Assembly: GCF_900115545.1 (NCBI RefSeq) | Contig: NZ_FOWV01000001.1 | Span: 868,001-932,000, forward strand | DNA: 64,000 nt | Source of the DNA: Ralstonia sp. NFACC01 | Lineage (GTDB): Bacteria > Pseudomonadota > Gammaproteobacteria > Burkholderiales > Burkholderiaceae | Reading direction: 5' to 3' | In this document: positions 4,181 to 60,532 of the stretch, piece after piece | Layout: every line of letters begins with the position of its first letter | Position numbering within the stretch: position 1 is the stretch's first letter | Notes under the pieces: model-generated | Told to the model about the DNA's origin: nothing | Databases searched by the model: none | The model's input: only the letters and a program-made list of their open reading frames with translations | Translations under genes and position numbers: made by a program

Positions 4181-4204
4181 TTCTTCCGACGTGGGAGGTG
4201 AATC

Positions 4205-5824
4205 TCACTCCCACTCGATCGTCGCAGGCGGCTTGCCCGACACGTCATACACGACCCGGCTCAACCCGCGCACTTCATTGATGATGCGGTTCGACACACG
4301 GCCCAGCAGCGTGTACGGCAGATGCGCCCAATGTGCGGTCATGAAATCGGTGGTCTGCACAGCACGCAGCGCAGTGACGTAGTCGTACGTACGGCCATCG
4401 CCCATCACGCCGACGGACTTGATCGGCAAGAACACGGCAAACGCCTGGCTGGTCAGGTCGTACCAGCTCTTGCCGACATCGCCTTCACCGCACAGGCCGG
4501 CGGCCGCGTCTTGCACCGTAGCCTTGGTGCCACGCAGTTCTTCGATGAAGATGGCGTCGGCACGGCGCAGCAGGTCTGCGTATTCACGCTTGACCTCGCC
4601 CAGAATGCGCACGCCCAGACCCGGCCCCGGGAACGGATGGCGATAGACCATCTCGTGCGGCAGGCCCAGCGCCACGCCAAGCTCACGCACTTCGTCCTTG
4701 AACAGATCGCGCAGCGGTTCGAGCAGCTTCAGCCCCAGCGTTTCCGGCAGGCCGCCCACGTTGTGGTGGCTCTTGATCGTCGTCGCCTTCTTGGTCTTGG
4801 TGCCGCCCGATTCCACCACGTCCGGGTAGATCGTGCCCTGCGCCAGCCACTTGGCGTTGCTGAGCTTCTTGGCTTCGGCTTGGAACACTTCAACGAACTC
4901 GCGGCCGATGATCTTGCGCTTGGCTTCCGGGTCCGTCACGCTGGCCAGGTGGCCGAGGAACTGCTCGGAGGCGTCCACGTGCACGACCTTGGCGTGCAGG
5001 CGGCCGGCGAACATGTCCATCACCATCTTGCCTTCGTCAAGACGTAGCAGGCCGTGGTCGACAAACACGCAGGTGAGTTGGTCGCCAATCGCACGGTGAA
5101 TGAGCGCCGCTGCCACCGATGAATCCACACCGCCCGACAGGCCGAGGATCACCTCCTCATCACCGACCTGCTCGCGGATGGCCTTGACGGCTTCGTCGAT
5201 GTGGTCGCGCATGACCCAGTCGGGCTTGGCACCGGCAATTTCCAGAACAAAGCGCTCGAGCATCGCGCGGCCTTGCACGGTATGCGTAACTTCCGGGTGA
5301 AACTGCACGGCGTAATAGCCACGTGCCTCATCGGCCATACCGGCGACCGGGCAGCTCGGCGTCGAGGCCAGCAGCTTGAAGCCGGGCGGCAGTTCCGTAA
5401 CCTTGTCGCCGTGGCTCATCCAGACCTTGAGCATGCCGTGGCCTTCCGGCGTGGCGAAGTCCTGGATGTCCTTGAGCAGACGCGTGTGGCCATGTGCACG
5501 CACTTCGGCGTAACCGAATTCGCGGTGGTCACTCCACTCCACCTTGCCGCCCAGCTGCACGGCCATGGTCTGCATGCCGTAGCAGATGCCGAGCACCGGC
5601 ACGCCCAGGTCCCACACGGCCTGCGGGGCGCGCAGCTGATGGTCTTCGTACGTGCTGGCATGGCTGCCGGACAGGATGATCGCCTTGGGCGCGAACTCGC
5701 GCACGAAGGCGTCGGACACGTCGTTCGGGTGGATCTCGCAGTAGACGTGTGCTTCACGCACGCGCCGCGCAATCAGTTGCGTGACCTGCGAGCCGAAATC
5801 AAGGATGAGGACTTTGTCGTGCAT
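4205..5824 (-). CDS. guaA: GMP synthase (glutamine-hydrolysing)
   Basis: The 539-residue enzyme converts XMP to GMP with glutamine and ATP. The class I glutamine amidotransferase domain fills the first 200 residues, with the nucleophile in GICYGMQ and the partner histidine and glutamate in QFHPEV. The ATP-pyrophosphatase P-loop follows ([15 protein letters not shown]), and the C-terminal dimerisation domain ends with the conserved TTDFMTAHW...PPATIEWE. The start [13 protein letters not shown] at 5824 is canonical; the frame stays open further upstream but the extra residues are not GuaA-like. The upstream membrane gene overlaps it by 26 nt, and guaB lies before that, so the three are probably co-transcribed. 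Confidence 0.98.
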
Positions 5825-39855: not shown

Positions 39856-41781
39856 ATGACTACCGATTCCGATGATTTTCCCGGCGACGACGACAAGCGC
39901 GGCGCCAGCGACCCGACTCAGCGCGCCACCCGCCCGGGCAAGCGTGCCACGCTCGGCGTGCGCCGCGACGACGAAGGCAATGCCGTACGTTCCACCGGCA
40001 AACCACTGCGCTCGTCTGACCTGAACCGCGAGCGCCAGCCCCTGCGCCCGTCGCAGCGCCGCCCCAAGCCGGAAGAAGGTGCCGGTAAGCCGCCGCGCCC
40101 CGCACGTCCTCCGCGACGCGACGACGATGGCCAGACGCGCGACGCCAAGCCGCGCCGCACGCAAGGCGATCGCCCACCGCGACGCTTTGATGACGAGCGG
40201 CCGCCTCGCCGATTCAGCGACGAGCAACGACCGCCCCGTCGCTCTGACGATGAGCGTCCGCCGCGACGCTTCGAAGATCGGCCGCCTCGCCGATTCGACG
40301 ACGAACGTCCCCCGCGTCGATTCGACAACGACCGCCCTCCGCGGCGCTTTGACGATGAGCAACGCCCGCCGCGCCGGTTCAATGACGATCAGCGCCCGCC
40401 CCGTCGTTTCGATGACGAACGCCCGCGCCGCTACGGCGACGATCAACGCGCACCGCGCCGTGAGGGCGATCAACGTCCTCCGCGACGTTTTGACGATGAG
40501 CGTCCGCCGCGCCGATACGGTGACGACCAACGCCCGCCACGCCGTTTCGATGACGAGCGTCCGCGACGCTATGGCGACGATCAACGCGCACCGCGCCGTG
40601 AGGGCGATCAACGTCCTCCGCGACGTTTTGACGATGAGCAACGTCCGCCCCGCCGTTTCGATGACGAACGCCCGCGACGCTATGGCGACGATCAACGCGC
40701 GCCCCGTCGTGATGGCGACCAACGTCCTCCGCGTCGCTTTGACGATGAGCGTCCGCCGCGCCGGTACGGTGACGACCAACGCCCGCCACGCCGATTCGAC
40801 GATGAGCAACGGCCGCCGCGGCGCTATGGCGACGATCAACGCGCACCGCGTCGTGATGGTGACCAACGCCCGCCGCGTCGTTTTGATAACGATCGTCCGC
40901 CGCGCCGCTTTGAAGATCGTCCGGCCCGTCCGCAACGGCTCGAGCGCGAGGAACGCGCTCCGCGTCATGCCGAGGAGCAGGCACCACGCCAGGCGCAGCA
41001 AAGCGAATCGAGCGGCTTGGTGCGTCTGTCCAAGCGCATGTCCGAACTGGGTCTATGCTCGCGCCGCGAGGCCGATGAATGGATTCCGCGCGGCTGGGTG
41101 CTCGTGGACGGCGAGCCGGTCACTGAGCTTGGATCGCGCGTCAAACCGGATGCGATCATCGAGATCCATCAGTCGGCGCGATCCGAGCAAGGCGAGCGCG
41201 TGACCGTGCTGATGCATAAGCCGGTCGGTTACGTGTCGGGCCAGGCAGAAGACGGCTATCAGCCGGCCGTTTCGCTGTTCGTGCCGGAAAACCAGTGGGA
41301 AGGCGACCCCACGCGCAAGCGCTTCGCGCCTTGGCAGCGCCGGGCGTTGGCGCCAGCCGGCCGACTGGATATCGACTCCACAGGCTTGCTGGTGTTGACG
41401 CAGGACGGCCGCGTGGCGCGCCACCTGATCGGCGAGGATTCGACGGTCGAGAAGGAATACCTGGTGCGCGTGGTATGGGATTCGCCCAACGGGTTGGTCG
41501 AGCGCGACATCTCCAAGGTCTTCCCGGAAGAGCTGATGGAGAAGCTGCGCTTTGGCCTGTCGCTCGACGGCGAAGAACTCAAGCCCGCGAAGGTGAGCTG
41601 GCAGAACGAAGAGCAGTTGCGCTTCGTGCTGCGCGAAGGCAAGAAACGCCAGATCCGCCGCATGTGCGAACAGGTGGGACTGGAGGTGGTAGGCCTCAAG
41701 CGCATCCGCATGGGCAGCATCGTGCTGGGCGACCTGCCGGTCGGCCAGTGGCGCTTCCTTGGGCCGTTCGAGAAGTTCTGA
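39856..41781 (+). CDS. rluF: RluF-like 23S rRNA pseudouridine synthase with long repetitive N-terminal extension
   Basis: The protein has 641 residues. The enzyme is confined to the last 254: an S4 domain (LVRLSKRMSELGLCSRREAD, from about residue 388), the RsuA/RluB/E/F catalytic motif AGRLDIDSTGLLVLT with Asp505, and a C-terminal LREGKKRQIRRMCEQVG. The SRREAD and RQIRRMCE motifs are closer to E. coli RluF than to RluB, whose label such proteins often carry. The first 387 residues are disordered, mostly tandem RPPRRFDDE-type units rich in Arg, Asp and Pro, likely an RNA-binding or condensate-forming arm. ATG 39856 begins MTTDSDDFPGDDDKR, 25 bp after glnD. The uridine modified is not proven. 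Confidence 0.85.
   Translation: MTTDSDDFPGDDDKRGASDPTQRATRPGKRATLGVRRDDEGNAVRSTGKPLRSSDLNRERQPLRPSQRRPKPEEGAGKPPRPARPPRRDDDGQTRDAKPRRTQGDRPPRRFDDERPPRRFSDEQRPPRRSDDERPPRRFEDRPPRRFDDERPPRRFDNDRPPRRFDDEQRPPRRFNDDQRPPRRFDDERPRRYGDDQRAPRREGDQRPPRRFDDERPPRRYGDDQRPPRRFDDERPRRYGDDQRAPRREGDQRPPRRFDDEQRPPRRFDDERPRRYGDDQRAPRRDGDQRPPRRFDDERPPRRYGDDQRPPRRFDDEQRPPRRYGDDQRAPRRDGDQRPPRRFDNDRPPRRFEDRPARPQRLEREERAPRHAEEQAPRQAQQSESSGLVRLSKRMSELGLCSRREADEWIPRGWVLVDGEPVTELGSRVKPDAIIEIHQSARSEQGERVTVLMHKPVGYVSGQAEDGYQPAVSLFVPENQWEGDPTRKRFAPWQRRALAPAGRLDIDSTGLLVLTQDGRVARHLIGEDSTVEKEYLVRVVWDSPNGLVERDISKVFPEELMEKLRFGLSLDGEELKPAKVSWQNEEQLRFVLREGKKRQIRRMCEQVGLEVVGLKRIRMGSIVLGDLPVGQWRFLGPFEKF
40168..40935 (+). repeat. 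Coding tandem repeats of the RluF extension
   Basis: About 770 bp of degenerate 24-30 bp units encode RPPRRF-DDE, RPRRYGDDQ and RAPRR(E/D)GDQ blocks. A higher-order unit beginning CGCTAYGGCGACGATCAACG recurs at 40429, 40567, 40678 and 40822 (steps of 138, 111 and 144 bp), and the first two copies are nearly identical for about 70 bp. This points to recent unit duplication, so copy number may differ between strains. Confidence 0.85.
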
Positions 41782-57815: not shown

Positions 57816-58718
57816 ATGACCACGCCAACCCTCCCCACCTCCCACCCGTTCACCACCGTGCGCGACCTGCTGCGCTACGCCGTGTCGCGTTTCACCGCTG
57901 CGGGCCTCGTCTTCGGCCACGGCAGCGAGAATGCCTACGACGAAGCCGCTTACCTGATCCTGCACACGCTGCACCTGCCGATCGACACGCTGGAGCCGTT
58001 CATGGACGCGCGCCTGCTGCCCGAAGAAGTGGCCGCCGTGCTGAAAGTGATCGAGCGCCGCGCTGTCGACCGCGTGCCCGCCGCGTACATCACGCACGAG
58101 GCATTCATGCACGGCATGCGCTTCTATGTGGACGAGCGGGTGATCGTGCCGCGCAGCTTCATCGGCGAATTGCTCGAAGACGGGCTGGAGCCGTGGATTG
58201 ACCAGGAGGACGGCCCGACCGATGTGCTGGAGCTGTGCACCGGCTCGGGCTGCCTGTCGATCCTGGCTGCGCTGCAATGGCCCAATGCGACCATCGATGC
58301 CGTGGATCTGTCGCCCGATGCACTGGTGGTGGCCAATCGCAATGTCGACGAATACCGCCTGCAAGACCGCATCCGCCTGCACGAGGGCGACCTGTATGCG
58401 CCGCTGCCGCCGGGCGTGCATTACGACGTGATCCTGACGAACCCGCCGTACGTAAACGAAGCGTCGATGCAGGCGCTGCCGCCCGAGTATCGTGCCGAAC
58501 CGCACATGGCGCTGGCCGGCGGCAACGACGGCATGGACATCGTGCGCCGCATCCTGGCCGATGCACCGCGCCACCTGAAGCCGCACGGCGTGCTGGTGGT
58601 GGAAATCGGCAACGAGCGTGAAAACGTTGAGGCGGCGTTCCCGGATCTCGACTTGATCTGGCTGCCGACAAGCGCGGGCGAAGACCAGGTGTTCTTGGTG
58701 ACGCGCGAGGCGCTTTAA
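57816..58718 (+). CDS. prmB: 50S ribosomal protein L3 glutamine methyltransferase PrmB
   Basis: The 300-residue SAM-dependent enzyme methylates a glutamine of L3. LELCTGSGCLSILAAL is the SAM site and LTNPPYVNE the NPPY motif that holds the glutamine amide. The N-terminal FTTVRDLLRYAVSRFTAAGLVFGHG and VPAAYITHEAFMHGMRFYVDERVIVPRSFIGELL are PrmB-like. ATG 57816 is chosen over upstream in-frame sequence lacking similarity. It ends 10 bp before the palindrome array at 58728. Confidence 0.94.
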   Translation: MTTPTLPTSHPFTTVRDLLRYAVSRFTAAGLVFGHGSENAYDEAAYLILHTLHLPIDTLEPFMDARLLPEEVAAVLKVIERRAVDRVPAAYITHEAFMHGMRFYVDERVIVPRSFIGELLEDGLEPWIDQEDGPTDVLELCTGSGCLSILAALQWPNATIDAVDLSPDALVVANRNVDEYRLQDRIRLHEGDLYAPLPPGVHYDVILTNPPYVNEASMQALPPEYRAEPHMALAGGNDGMDIVRRILADAPRHLKPHGVLVVEIGNERENVEAAFPDLDLIWLPTSAGEDQVFLVTREAL

Positions 58719-58727
58719 GCGAATGAG

Positions 58728-58981
58728 GTTCCGAACCGCACGCATGGGGTTCGGAACTCAGCAGGTTGGCGTTCGGAACGCCATGGTCCGGGTTGCGAAC
58801 GCCGTGTTTCTGGTTCCAAACGCCACAATTAGAGTTCAGAACTCGGTGTGTGGCGTTCGGAACGCCGGGTCTCCGAGTTCCGAACCCCACATATCAGGTT
58901 CTGGACTCGGTGATTGCCGTTCAGAACCTCATGCGCCGGGCTTTGAACCCCGCATTTGACGTTCGGAACCCGACGCGCCGA
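58728..58981. repeat. Phased array of twelve GTTC-N-GAAC palindromes, 21-22 bp period
   Basis: Core units start at 58728, 58749, 58771, 58792, 58813, 58834, 58855, 58877, 58898, 58919, 58940 and 58961. Eight match GTTC-N-GAAC exactly, three differ at one base, and the eleventh differs at two. Spacing is 21 bp nine times and 22 bp twice. Units 3 and 7 extend to the same perfect 15-mer GGCGTTCGGAACGCC (58768-58782 and 58852-58866). The 12-13 bp between cores vary. The array fills the gap between convergent prmB and the small lipoprotein gene. No complete gene fits: the two 22-bp steps break any heptapeptide frame. Confidence 0.9.
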
Positions 58982-59038
58982 CTGCAATACTCAGGCGAGA
59001 ACGCAACGGCCGCCATATCCGAAACAGCCGTCACAGCC

Positions 59039-59395
59039 TCAGGACTTCACCTCATCACAGGCGTCTTTCACGACGCAGATCGAAAAGCGCTTATCGAACA
59101 CTTGGCCGCTCGGGCAGTGGTCGAAGACGGCTTGCAACTGGGCGTCGCAGGTCGCGTAGGCGGTGGTGCAGTTGGTGCGCACGGGTTGCTTCGGACCGCG
59201 GTTGGTTCCGTCGTCGATCATGAAGCGGCCCGAGGGCGCGGGGCATTTGAATTCTGCGGCGGCCTTGGCGAGCGCGGCGGCAGCCTTTTCGGCCTTCGAC
59301 GTCTGCGGCGTGGGTGGGTTCGGGGATGGGCGACGGTCGCAAGCCGTTAGTGCTAGCGCACACAGCAGCATGCCGAGTGTGAGTGCGCGGGTCAT
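59039..59395 (-). CDS. Small lipoprotein with peritrophin-A (CBM14)-like cysteine pattern
   Basis: The 118-residue protein starts at ATG 59395 behind an AGGAGT. Its signal peptide ends in the lipobox LTAC (Cys19), so the mature protein is lipid-anchored. After a Pro/Ala/Lys linker, six cysteines lie at 51, 76, 83, 94, 107 and 113, spaced 24-6-10-12-5. The segment TTAYATCDAQLQAVFDHCPS and GQVFDKRFSICVVKDAC resemble the CxxG-xxF-D-x-x-x-x-x-C end of peritrophin-A chitin-binding domains. Chitin or peptidoglycan binding is inferred from pattern only. It points toward the palindrome array, which begins 57 bp past its stop. Confidence 0.7.
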   Translation of the reverse strand: MTRALTLGMLLCALALTACDRRPSPNPPTPQTSKAEKAAAALAKAAAEFKCPAPSGRFMIDDGTNRGPKQPVRTNCTTAYATCDAQLQAVFDHCPSGQVFDKRFSICVVKDACDEVKS

Positions 59396-59491
59396 GGGGG
59401 GACTCCTTCGAGGTTGGATGTCCTGAAGTTTACGCTGCGATGTGCGTTTTTGGTCCATCCCCCCGTTTCGTCCCCTGCCGGGGCCGACCTA

Positions 59492-59530
59492 CTTTCTTTG
59501 TCTTGCCAAAGAAAAGTGGGCAAAGAAAGG
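59492..59530. repeat. REP-like CTTTCTTTG/CAAAGAAAG element
   Basis: CTTTCTTTG (59492-59500) faces CAAAGAAAAG (59507-59516), and a second CAAAGAAAGG follows at 59521-59530, so two alternative hairpins can form. From memory, similar CTTTCTTTG...CAAAGAAAG sequences recur between genes in Ralstonia and Burkholderia relatives; that was not checked here. Together with the hairpin at 59554-59645 it fills most of the gene-free stretch 59396-59716. Confidence 0.55.
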
Positions 59531-59553
59531 CGCGCCCGAGATGGCGAAAGATT

Positions 59554-59645
59554 CCTTGAATTTATGTCGCAGAGAGGGGAAGGGAAAACTCGCTTCGCTC
59601 AGACAGTTTCCCTTCCTTTTTCCTCTCTGCAACAGAAATTCAAGG
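59554..59645. repeat. Long imperfect hairpin downstream of the REP-like element
   Basis: CCTTGAATTT (59554-59563) pairs with AAATTCAAGG (59636-59645). GCAGAGAGG (59569-59577) pairs with CCTCTCTGC (59622-59630), and GGAAGGGAAAACT (59578-59590) with AGTTTCCCTTCC (59605-59616). The 92-nt structure has a 14-nt loop and could be the 3' end of a transcript or part of a REP-type mobile element. Confidence 0.6.
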
Positions 59646-59716
59646 CGCCATCTAGGGCATGAACGGCCGAACCGTCGGGGCGCGTGCGCTGGCGCCGTGA
59701 GATGCCGAGCTGGTGC

Positions 59717-60532
59717 TTAACGCAGCATCGCCGACATGGCGGAGAGGCTGTTGAGCATGCGCACGGCATGTTCCACGGAGTCGGCGGCGAAGCGGAGCAT
59801 CGTGCCGTCGACGCGCTCCAGGGCGGGCCATTGGCAGAACAGGTCGGCCAATGCGGGCGTTTGCGTTTGCAGGCGGCACACGATCGGTGCCTGGAGGCGC
59901 AGCGGCATGCTGAAATGGCCTCGCCGCACCGTGGCTTTCACCGCTGCGTAGATGGCCTCGCACGACTGCTCGGGCGAGAGCGATGTGCCGGCGTTCTGCC
60001 CTTCGGCCTGCTTGGTTTCGACGAACGTGGTGTGCGGCAGCAGCGGCTTGGTTTCCTTGATGAACACATCGTCGCCGCTGGCAACGGCCACCGGCACGCC
60101 GCGCTCGCCGGCCAGGGCGCCGTAGAGGCCGGCTTCGCCCAGTTCCTGTTCGTTGAACCAGACGCGCGCAAACGCAAAGCTGTTGATGGTATGCGCCAGC
60201 ACACCGCGGCTGCCGGCACGGGCGTGGTAGCCGATCATGCAGACGGCATCGCAGCCGTCCACGCCGGCCATCATGCTCAGGTAACGCGGCTTGCCGAGAA
60301 CGAAGCGTGCGCGGCGGTCGATGGAATCGGGGATGAGGTTGCGGAAACCTCCGTGCGAATCGTTGACCAGCACGTCCGTAGCGCCACCGTCGAAGGCACC
60401 ACGCACGGCGGCGTCGGCTTCGGCGGTCATCCAGCGGCGGGCGCGTTCGTATTCGCCGTTGCCGGCGCGCGTCTGCTCGGGGTGGAACACGTTGGCCACG
60501 CCTTCGATGTCGGCGGAGATCAGGATTCGCAT
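59717..60532 (-). CDS. dppA: D-aminopeptidase, M55 family (DppA-like)
   Basis: The 271-residue zinc peptidase has the M55 metal ligands in place as known for Bacillus DppA: Asp8 and Glu10 (ADIEG), His60 (NDSHGG), His103 (GYHARAG) and Glu133 (LGEAG), with the catalytic-site His114 in AHTINS. Members cleave peptides with D-amino acids at the N-terminus, such as D-Ala-D-Ala. It lies 9 bp downstream of a P1 peptidase and the Gsi-type transporter, so it is likely the last step in use of imported D-peptides. The symbol follows Bacillus and is unrelated to E. coli DppA. Confidence 0.93.
   Translation of the reverse strand: MRILISADIEGVANVFHPEQTRAGNGEYERARRWMTAEADAAVRGAFDGGATDVLVNDSHGGFRNLIPDSIDRRARFVLGKPRYLSMMAGVDGCDAVCMIGYHARAGSRGVLAHTINSFAFARVWFNEQELGEAGLYGALAGERGVPVAVASGDDVFIKETKPLLPHTTFVETKQAEGQNAGTSLSPEQSCEAIYAAVKATVRRGHFSMPLRLQAPIVCRLQTQTPALADLFCQWPALERVDGTMLRFAADSVEHAVRMLNSLSAMSAMLR

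Follow-up and report, generated by a model that had tools for sequence, protein, structure and literature searches.

Helically phased palindrome arrays in Ralstonia and a linked protein family: a proposed two-part system of bacteria, widespread and apparently undescribed

A 64-kb stretch of the genome of Ralstonia sp. NFACC01 (64,000 nucleotides, referred to in its entirety as the window) carries an array of 12 GTTC-N-GAAC palindromes at positions 58728–58969, in which nine of the steps from unit to unit measure 21 bp and two measure 22 bp. Comparative analysis confirmed that the palindrome array is real and evolutionarily protected. Arrays of this phase also lie beside the genes of a helical protein family of ∼160 aa, for which the label array-neighbour protein (ANP) was coined here, and array and ANP together make up a two-part system that is widespread in bacteria and apparently undescribed. 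On the sequence data presented below, we are inclined to regard the window array as a dispersed, class-specific predicted binding platform of this ANP-plus-array system; that ANP is itself the binder of the arrays is a more tentative proposal, to which we give a little less than even weight.

The twelve 9-bp palindromes and their steps had been described in an earlier sequence-only reading of the window, together with eight perfect GTTC-N-GAAC units and a 15-mer (GGCGTTCGGAACGCC) common to units 3 and 7, and this description was borne out. The perfect units read GTTCCGAAC (unit 1, 58728–58736; unit 8, 58877–58885), GTTCGGAAC (unit 2, 58749–58757; unit 3, 58771–58779; unit 7, 58855–58863; unit 12, 58961–58969) or GTTCAGAAC (unit 6, 58834–58842; unit 10, 58919–58927). 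One mismatch each is found in unit 4 (GTTGCGAAC, 58792–58800), unit 5 (GTTCCAAAC, 58813–58821) and unit 9 (GTTCTGGAC, 58898–58906), and two mismatches in unit 11 (GCTTTGAAC, 58940–58948); the spacers are 12–13 bp long. Exact GTTCNGAAC occurs eight times in the window, always inside the array; 100 dinucleotide shuffles gave an expectation of 0.98, and not one shuffle attained eight. When 396 units from 34 arrays were combined (orthologs counted; eight loci with fewer than five chained units left out), the consensus extended to a 17-bp dyad, TGGR-GTTCNGAAC-YCCA, and the steps were 21 bp in 308 and 22 bp in 52 of 362 cases.

The array begins 9 bases past the stop codon of prmB (57819–58718, plus strand), which encodes the 50S ribosomal protein L3 N5-glutamine methyltransferase (TIGR03533, E 1.3e-122) and is a neighbour, not a component of the system. 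This gene was found in all 16 Ralstonia genomes, and the 400 bases 3' of it hold a GTTC-type array of 5 to 11 chained units in nine, an array with a different motif at 21-bp steps in one (G158, score 51) and no array in six (G058, G067, G105, G113, G129 and G144; scores 6 to 11). Eight of the prmB-locus arrays were aligned in register (G096 and G158, not alignable in register, were left out), and their variable columns amounted to 32 of 96 in the cores, 7 of 12 at the central N and 94 of 146 in the spacers (Fisher p 3.4e-6). The six closest orthologs gave 12/96, 4/12 and 55/146, respectively (Fisher p 1.6e-5), in agreement with the suggestion that cores should prove more conserved than spacers. 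Between G000, which is the window's own genome (5.37 Mb), and G077, none of the 96 core positions differed, compared with 24 of 146 spacer positions. The class I (GTTC) array beside an ANP gene, aligned from four genomes, gave similar results (variable columns: core 7/104, central N 6/13, spacer 46/158; p 7e-6). At both kinds of array the central N varied like spacer, and in five of six pairs the spacers of the ANP-gene array changed faster than the gene did at its third codon positions. Within a pair of arrays of a second class (class II; L179/L180), 34 of 186 core-phase positions differed and 84 of 244 of the rest. Class I cores changed symmetrically with respect to strand (74 T>C and 81 A>G changes in 396 units, orthologs among them), and double changes in class I units showed no preference for the RNA hairpin partner. 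Taken together, the uneven core and spacer variation, the strand symmetry and the 17-bp dyad are the mark expected of a symmetric DNA-binding dimer, not of a minisatellite.

The window sits in contig C16 of G000, where the pair pattern GTTCNGAAC-N11..13-GTTCNGAAC was matched 20 times and a reversed control, also a palindrome, not at all. These matches fall at eight places (chained units in brackets): C4:145101 (11), C9:116091 (12), C16:271452 (7), C16:717637 (6), C16:926728, i.e. the window array (12), C23:24680 (13), C23:271570 (2) and C24:8362 (8). Based on a simple gene model, seven of the eight overlap no listed open reading frame (ORF) and one overlaps an ORF end (L030), while three arrays (window, L026 and L029) start 9, 12 and 24 bases past a stop codon. 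As first described, the window array lies between convergent genes (prmB on the plus strand and an ORF at 59039–59458 on the minus strand); this is no rule, since another class I array (L028, G000:C16:271410) lies between the codirectional ureC and ureE and ends ∼28 bp before the ureE start, a site that looks like a urease operon. The array at C16:717637 (L029) is a hybrid that passes from class I GTTCNGAAC units to class II units (CGAGCTCNGAGC/CGAGCAAAAAGC), and at C23:271570 (L031) GTTCNGAAC units are followed, by eye, by class II-like units.

Related genomes do carry the array, as had been proposed for checking: the GTTCNGAAC pair was present in 15 of 16 Ralstonia genomes and in none of the 283 sampled genomes from the rest of the family, with 0 control matches throughout. 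A triple pattern was matched by at least 119 stretches across bacterial genome contigs and by three stretches in viral contigs; among the bacterial matches listed were Nostocales, Bacteroidota, Treponema, Acidobacteriota, Planctomycetaceae, Thiosymbion, Thiohalocapsa, Saccharothrix and relatives, and Ralstonia. The longest phased arrays reach 33 units. Saccharothrix loci (L033, L034, L063, L095 and others) were seen to have 22-bp arrays with GTTCNGAAC; ANP is absent from the two genomes tested, and these arrays may be plain minisatellites or a third kind.

The ANP family was identified by a blind neighbour search, in which all open frames of at least 80 aa from the array loci (3180 frames) were compared all-vs-all. 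It was the neighbour family with the most taxon labels among these loci (six), followed by what reads as an ABC-type ATPase (four). A profile of the family found it in 13 array loci, with the array 3' of the gene in ten and 5' in two Ralstonia loci; at L093 the ANP copy is broken at the array. Six members had no significant match in Pfam, NCBIfam, PHROG or PADLOC. AlphaFold, run on 11 ANP sequences, returned an all-helical model (pLDDT 81, pTM 0.61) with one helix of 52 residues and a low-confidence tail. ANP matches occurred in all 16 Ralstonia genomes (one to four each, pieces counted), in one of 283 other genomes sampled from the family, in two of 398 sampled Pseudomonadota (G000 being one) and in 23 of the 30 genomes reached via array loci; the seven without ANP were Saccharothrix (two), Actinokineospora, Nocardia, Leptolyngbya, Thiohalocapsa and a Planctomycetaceae metagenome-assembled genome.

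Near ANP genes, an array was called when the self-match score at lags of 20 to 23 was at least 20 in 700 bases. Among loci found protein-first, an array was present 5' of the gene in 22 of 30 Ralstonia loci and 3' in none, and in other phyla 3' in 45 of 49 and 5' in one (46 of 49 on either side); these counts leave out L312, which has N in place of the array sequence, and the weak L274 (score of 15), and the 49 non-Ralstonia loci were picked by protein from genomes that had themselves been picked for GTTC arrays. As background, 12 of 231 intervals of 700 bp from ten Ralstonia ANP regions scored at least 20, and nine of these 12 hold the ANP gene's own array. Further Ralstonia copies beyond the 30 scored at least 20 on the 5' side in seven of eight cases. 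One genome found by protein alone (G359) has arrays at all three of its ANP copies, one 5' and two 3', with the motifs GCCTTGCGCGCAAG, GAGTTCNGGACTC (near GTTC type) and a third, weaker one. The sequence-only reading had also raised the prospect of a regulator with the motif in its own promoter, and this pointed to the ANP family, most of whose Ralstonia genes have an array directly upstream. Its view that the array is no ordinary promoter operator stands for arrays inside an operon or between convergent genes and does not extend to those at Ralstonia ANP genes, which are promoter-proximal. By eye, many Ralstonia ANP loci also have an inverted repeat like GTCGTGCC-N3..6-GGCATGAC between the array and the start, ∼30–60 bp before the ATG, which could be a leader hairpin. 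At L299 (G024:C1:3058000-3075000) a 21-bp-lag signal (∼4200–4900, score 21) was observed ∼1 kb upstream of an ANP gene. An inserted element (L194) seemingly cut off the 5' array of this gene, and the signal is perhaps that array, displaced.

ANP lineages differ in their palindrome and share the 21-bp phase, with a few arrays at a 22-bp phase. The lineage motifs comprise GTTCNGAAC, CGAGCTCNGAGCTCG alternating with CGAGCAAAAAGCC, ACACTGGAGCTTCA, GGACCTNNNAGGTCC, TTGANCCTCAGAAGGTCAA, AGTTCNGARCT with AGATAAATCT, and others. On a 76-tip ANP tree the GTTC label changed 13 times, with at least ten changes forced by well supported branches; under shuffling the mean was 22.5 and 0 of 500 replicates were as low as 13. 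A palindrome that changes repeatedly while the phase stays is expected if protein and site co-diversify against something. Within Ralstonia, motif classes follow ANP clades, and the seven GTTC ANP genes form one group beside the class II genes.

Several of these motifs, taken from gene-proximal arrays, recur in arrays at other places of the same genome. The class II pattern was found in 11 of 16 (216 matches vs. 7 for the reversed control), and class II ANP genes in G087, G113 (with a stop codon), G121, G144 and G151. For the GGACCT motif there were 39 matches (control 3): G129 has it next to its ANP gene (C381) and on six further contigs, G000 and G067 have it solely next to their own ANP genes, and G043 and G087 have it elsewhere. 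With a control of 0, the ACACTG motif lies beside the gene in G024, beside the gene and again 563 kb away in G121, and elsewhere in the genome in G043, G151 and G077. In G158, the array at the prmB site (L170; GCAAAGC...AGCTCCAATC) has the most 7-mers and 8-mers in common with the array next to the sole ANP gene found in that genome, which is 88% complete (106 common 7-mers vs. 70 for the next among 29 Ralstonia gene-proximal arrays). As the prmB site bears a GTTC array elsewhere and another motif in G158, one chromosomal place holds two classes in different species, the second of which matches the resident gene. Genomes with an intact class I gene have 12 (G043), 28 (G077), 24 (G067), 7 (G058), 16 (G129) and 13 (G105) GTTC pairs, compared with 20, 13, 9, 8, 0, 11, 2, 14, 9 and 12 in the Ralstonia genomes without one, and the link of class I gene presence to array number is weak.

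In seven Ralstonia genomes, genes turn over at the class I ANP locus. Its downstream flank is common to G043, G067, G077, G105, G129, G121 (which carries a class II gene there) and G000 (a truncated gene), and its upstream flank to five of the seven, the exceptions within the stretch fetched being G105 and G129. Synteny returns after 1.2 to 5.1 kb that differ between genomes and contain TIR-DnaB, ParA-like and DUF4238 genes, a gene read as PAAR-like, and others. When the two closest ORFs on the 3' side were taken for each of 24 Ralstonia ANP genes, these 48 ORFs matched 105 PADLOC models at E 1e-10, compared with two for the 48 ORFs on the other side, figures that count models and not proteins; the nameable defence-like cargo proteins are at least four (a methyltransferase, a ThsB-like TIR, a NucC-like nuclease and Vsr), perhaps five with PDC-S15, compared with one. 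An enrichment of defence genes 3' of Ralstonia ANP genes is therefore suggestive. On the opposite side of the array, a gene of ∼120–130 aa with a highly conserved C-terminus (gene X; e.g. L289, L290, L291, L296 and L297) is divergent from ANP in 20 of 26 Ralstonia ANP loci, and had no Pfam or NCBIfam match.

In the mechanism that we propose, the 9-bp sites (17 bp when extended) would be two-fold symmetric and placed two helical turns apart, and neighbouring bound dimers would lie on one DNA face, able to touch and to act cooperatively. The ANP gene would sit beside its own array, which is on the 5' side in those Ralstonia copies where an array is detectable and on the 3' side in most of the rest, with further arrays of kindred type scattered round the chromosome. 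The array next to the gene could serve autoregulation, and dispersed arrays, e.g. that behind prmB, might mark local chromatin or expression or shield regions; in Ralstonia the system may mark, protect or regulate regions with a turnover of cargo that is in part defence-like. The phased, conserved cores fit the platform for a cooperating protein that the sequence-only reading had pictured, while binding and binder remain predicted. Linkage, private motifs and matching arrays elsewhere make ANP the leading candidate for that role, with a probability that we put just under one half, the binder otherwise being a host protein. With comparable reserve, we suggest that this may be an undescribed, phylum-crossing system, in which each ANP lineage is paired with its own palindrome, as a 21–22 bp array beside the gene and as arrays in trans.

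A number of observations weigh against this proposal. The charge of ANP is near-neutral (median 0, median pI 6.6; 77 proteins), Pfam recognised no DNA-binding domain in it (no significant match), no convincing fold match was obtained, and a residue code tying ANP sequence to motif was looked for and not found. In G000 itself the class I ANP gene is truncated (L297, C24:8093-8203; approximately the first 38 model positions match, with other cargo after) and the two intact ANP genes are both of other classes, yet its class I cores are identical to those of G077. Similarly, G024, G121 and G151 have no class I ANP gene among their copies and retain fairly intact class I cores, so that a class I ANP is not the sole protector of these cores, and no class II gene was seen in six of the 11 genomes bearing class II arrays. 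The neutral charge, the missing DNA-binding signature and the intact cores without a cognate gene argue either against ANP as binder or for cross-recognition by paralogs. Furthermore, two single-copy ANP loci outside Ralstonia, in G228 (L274, score 15) and on a Thiodictyon plasmid (L341, score 16), have no clear array. Lastly, the core-over-spacer constraint is demonstrated for Ralstonia only, and the Nostoc pair examined has near-identical units throughout, in the spacers as well, and resembles a recent tandem expansion.

A rival explanation, which we consider unlikely, is that the arrays are a platform for a host DNA-binding protein, with ANP acting on the bound complex or merely travelling along. 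By Pfam, fold and charge ANP is unlike a DNA-binding protein, genomes that lack a class I ANP gene still have fairly intact cores, and arrays of a class occur without that class's gene. A single host protein would, however, have to recognise unrelated palindromes (GTTCNGAAC, CGAGCTCNGAGC, GGACCTNNNAGGTCC and others), and in Ralstonia the motif follows the ANP lineage.

An RNA mechanism, in which arrays are transcribed and the repeats act as guides or as hairpins bound by ANP, as in the stem-loop arrays of TIGR-Tas, is improbable in our estimate. It is suggested by the layout of repeats and variable spacers beside a small protein gene, with the array 5' or 3' of it, and by repeats that differ between loci, as they do in TIGR arrays according to the accessible text of PMC12045711. 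On both strands the window array folds as RNA with greater stability than shuffled sequence does (z -7.1 and -8.6), which would nevertheless follow from any repeated palindrome, and the loop left by the palindrome is a single base. Complementarity is more frequent than under shuffling at the outermost spacer bases (z 2.9) and less frequent at spacer positions 2, 3 and 5. Double changes are as frequent away from the hairpin partner (same unit 32, 15.6 expected; unit two along 27, 11.8 expected; reverse neighbour 34, 14.4 expected) as at it (25, 13.5 expected). The period is 21 and not 36, Pfam gave no Nop match in ANP, and the strictly variable part of a class I spacer is ∼4 bases.

Also improbable, and ranked just behind, is a selfish dispersed repeat, i.e. 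non-autonomous arrays spread by ANP-dependent mobility in the manner of REP elements with their RAYT transposase. One gene-linked array plus several dispersed copies per genome would be in keeping with this, as would the six of 16 relatives without an array behind prmB and the one ANP site at which genes turn over. No transposase or nuclease signature was found in ANP (Pfam, NCBIfam, PHROG and PADLOC), however, conserved cores with fast spacers are unlike a recent copy, and arrays at one site are common to several species. The decaying minisatellite named as the alternative in the sequence-only reading, i.e. a neutral repeat that happens to contain a palindrome, is very improbable: despite the tandem 21-bp layout, the wide-scan matches without ANP (two Saccharothrix, Actinokineospora and Nocardia), the near-identical units in several of these arrays and the homogenised look of the Nostoc arrays, it is ruled out for Ralstonia class I arrays by the uneven variation at matched orthologous positions (12/96 vs. 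55/146; 7/104 vs. 46/158; between G000 and G077, 0/96 vs. 24/146), and the pair pattern is confined to the genus among the family genomes sampled.

The surroundings of the window array were inspected as well. The convergent neighbour (59039–59458, minus strand) is lipoprotein-like from a reading of its N-terminus and had no Pfam or NCBIfam match when queried from an internal Met (59039-59395); Rfam gave no match at window positions 58000–60000. Intergenic inverted CTTTCTTTG/CAAAGAAAG elements and an inverted pair, AGGGAAAACT/AGTTTCCCT, at 59490–59650 lie outside the phased array and are apparently another intergenic element. Long degenerate tandem repeats at 40171–40964 (period 27/54-57/111/138) apparently encode an Arg/Asp/Pro-rich repeat.

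No description of such arrays together with such a protein was found in the accessible portions of the open-licence literature on bacterial repeats, partition arrays and defence hotspots, and the available part of a study of periodic repeats (PMC6344855) contains no mention of such arrays. The ANP family, nameless in the libraries searched, is thus tied to a regular DNA structure whose sequence changes and whose geometry is fixed. If ANP reads the array, its lineages would offer a compact natural set of protein–palindrome pairs with many specificities for studying the evolution of DNA recognition; if another protein reads it, a factor acting on one DNA face is still to be found. In either case, stretches that annotations currently list as hypothetical ORFs or simple repeats turn into a system that can be put to the test.

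Among known systems, the centromeres of plasmid partition (ParR/parC, ParG, StbA and KfrA type) consist of short repeats at approximately helical spacing in the promoter of a small protein gene; the arrays differ between relatives and the centromere-binding protein is autoregulating. The ANP arrays are alike in their approximately helical spacing and in their place at the promoter of a gene for a small protein, and differ in being chromosomal and dispersed, with no NTPase partner as a rule. Among ten proteins scanned with Pfam at seven Ralstonia ANP loci (nine cargo and one gene X), one AAA_31 gene (L294) was the sole candidate for a ParA, ParM or TubZ NTPase, and ORFs at other Ralstonia ANP sites look unrelated; for six ANP proteins Pfam gave no significant ribbon-helix-helix or helix-turn-helix match. 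REP elements are dispersed intergenic palindromes related to one RAYT gene per lineage. The ANP arrays resemble them as dispersed intergenic palindromes, at eight places in G000, and depart from them in a strict 21/22-bp phase over up to 33 units, compared with the single or paired hairpins of REP; no Y1 (HUH) tyrosine transposase was matched in six ANP proteins with Pfam or NCBIfam. CRISPR arrays combine near-identical repeats with unique spacers of ∼25–40 bp, unlike the window array with its 12–13 bp spacers and no Rfam match.

As far as the accessible text of PMC12045711 describes them, TIGR-Tas loci have an array up- or downstream of a small protein gene with a repeat that varies between loci, their tigRNAs are 36 nt long with two repeats and two spacers, and Tas has a Nop domain. 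An array beside a small protein gene and locus-specific repeats are thus common to both, whereas the ANP arrays have 21–22 bp steps and a strand-symmetric, DNA-type constraint in place of the 36-nt TIGR unit of that partial account. A search of six ANP proteins gave no Nop match up to E 1 with the Pfam model, which does not stand for the Nop domains of Tas. Several defining features of partition, REP/RAYT and TIGR systems are lacking; in its working the ANP system is somewhat akin to an autoregulated partition centromere, and in its appearance to REP/RAYT or TIGR arrays. Operator arrays and nucleoid-type spreading sites (parS clusters, LexA or Lsr2 type) present conserved dyads on one DNA face. 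The ANP arrays have this in common with them and differ in a motif that is private to each gene lineage and in a 21-bp phase that is kept across phyla.
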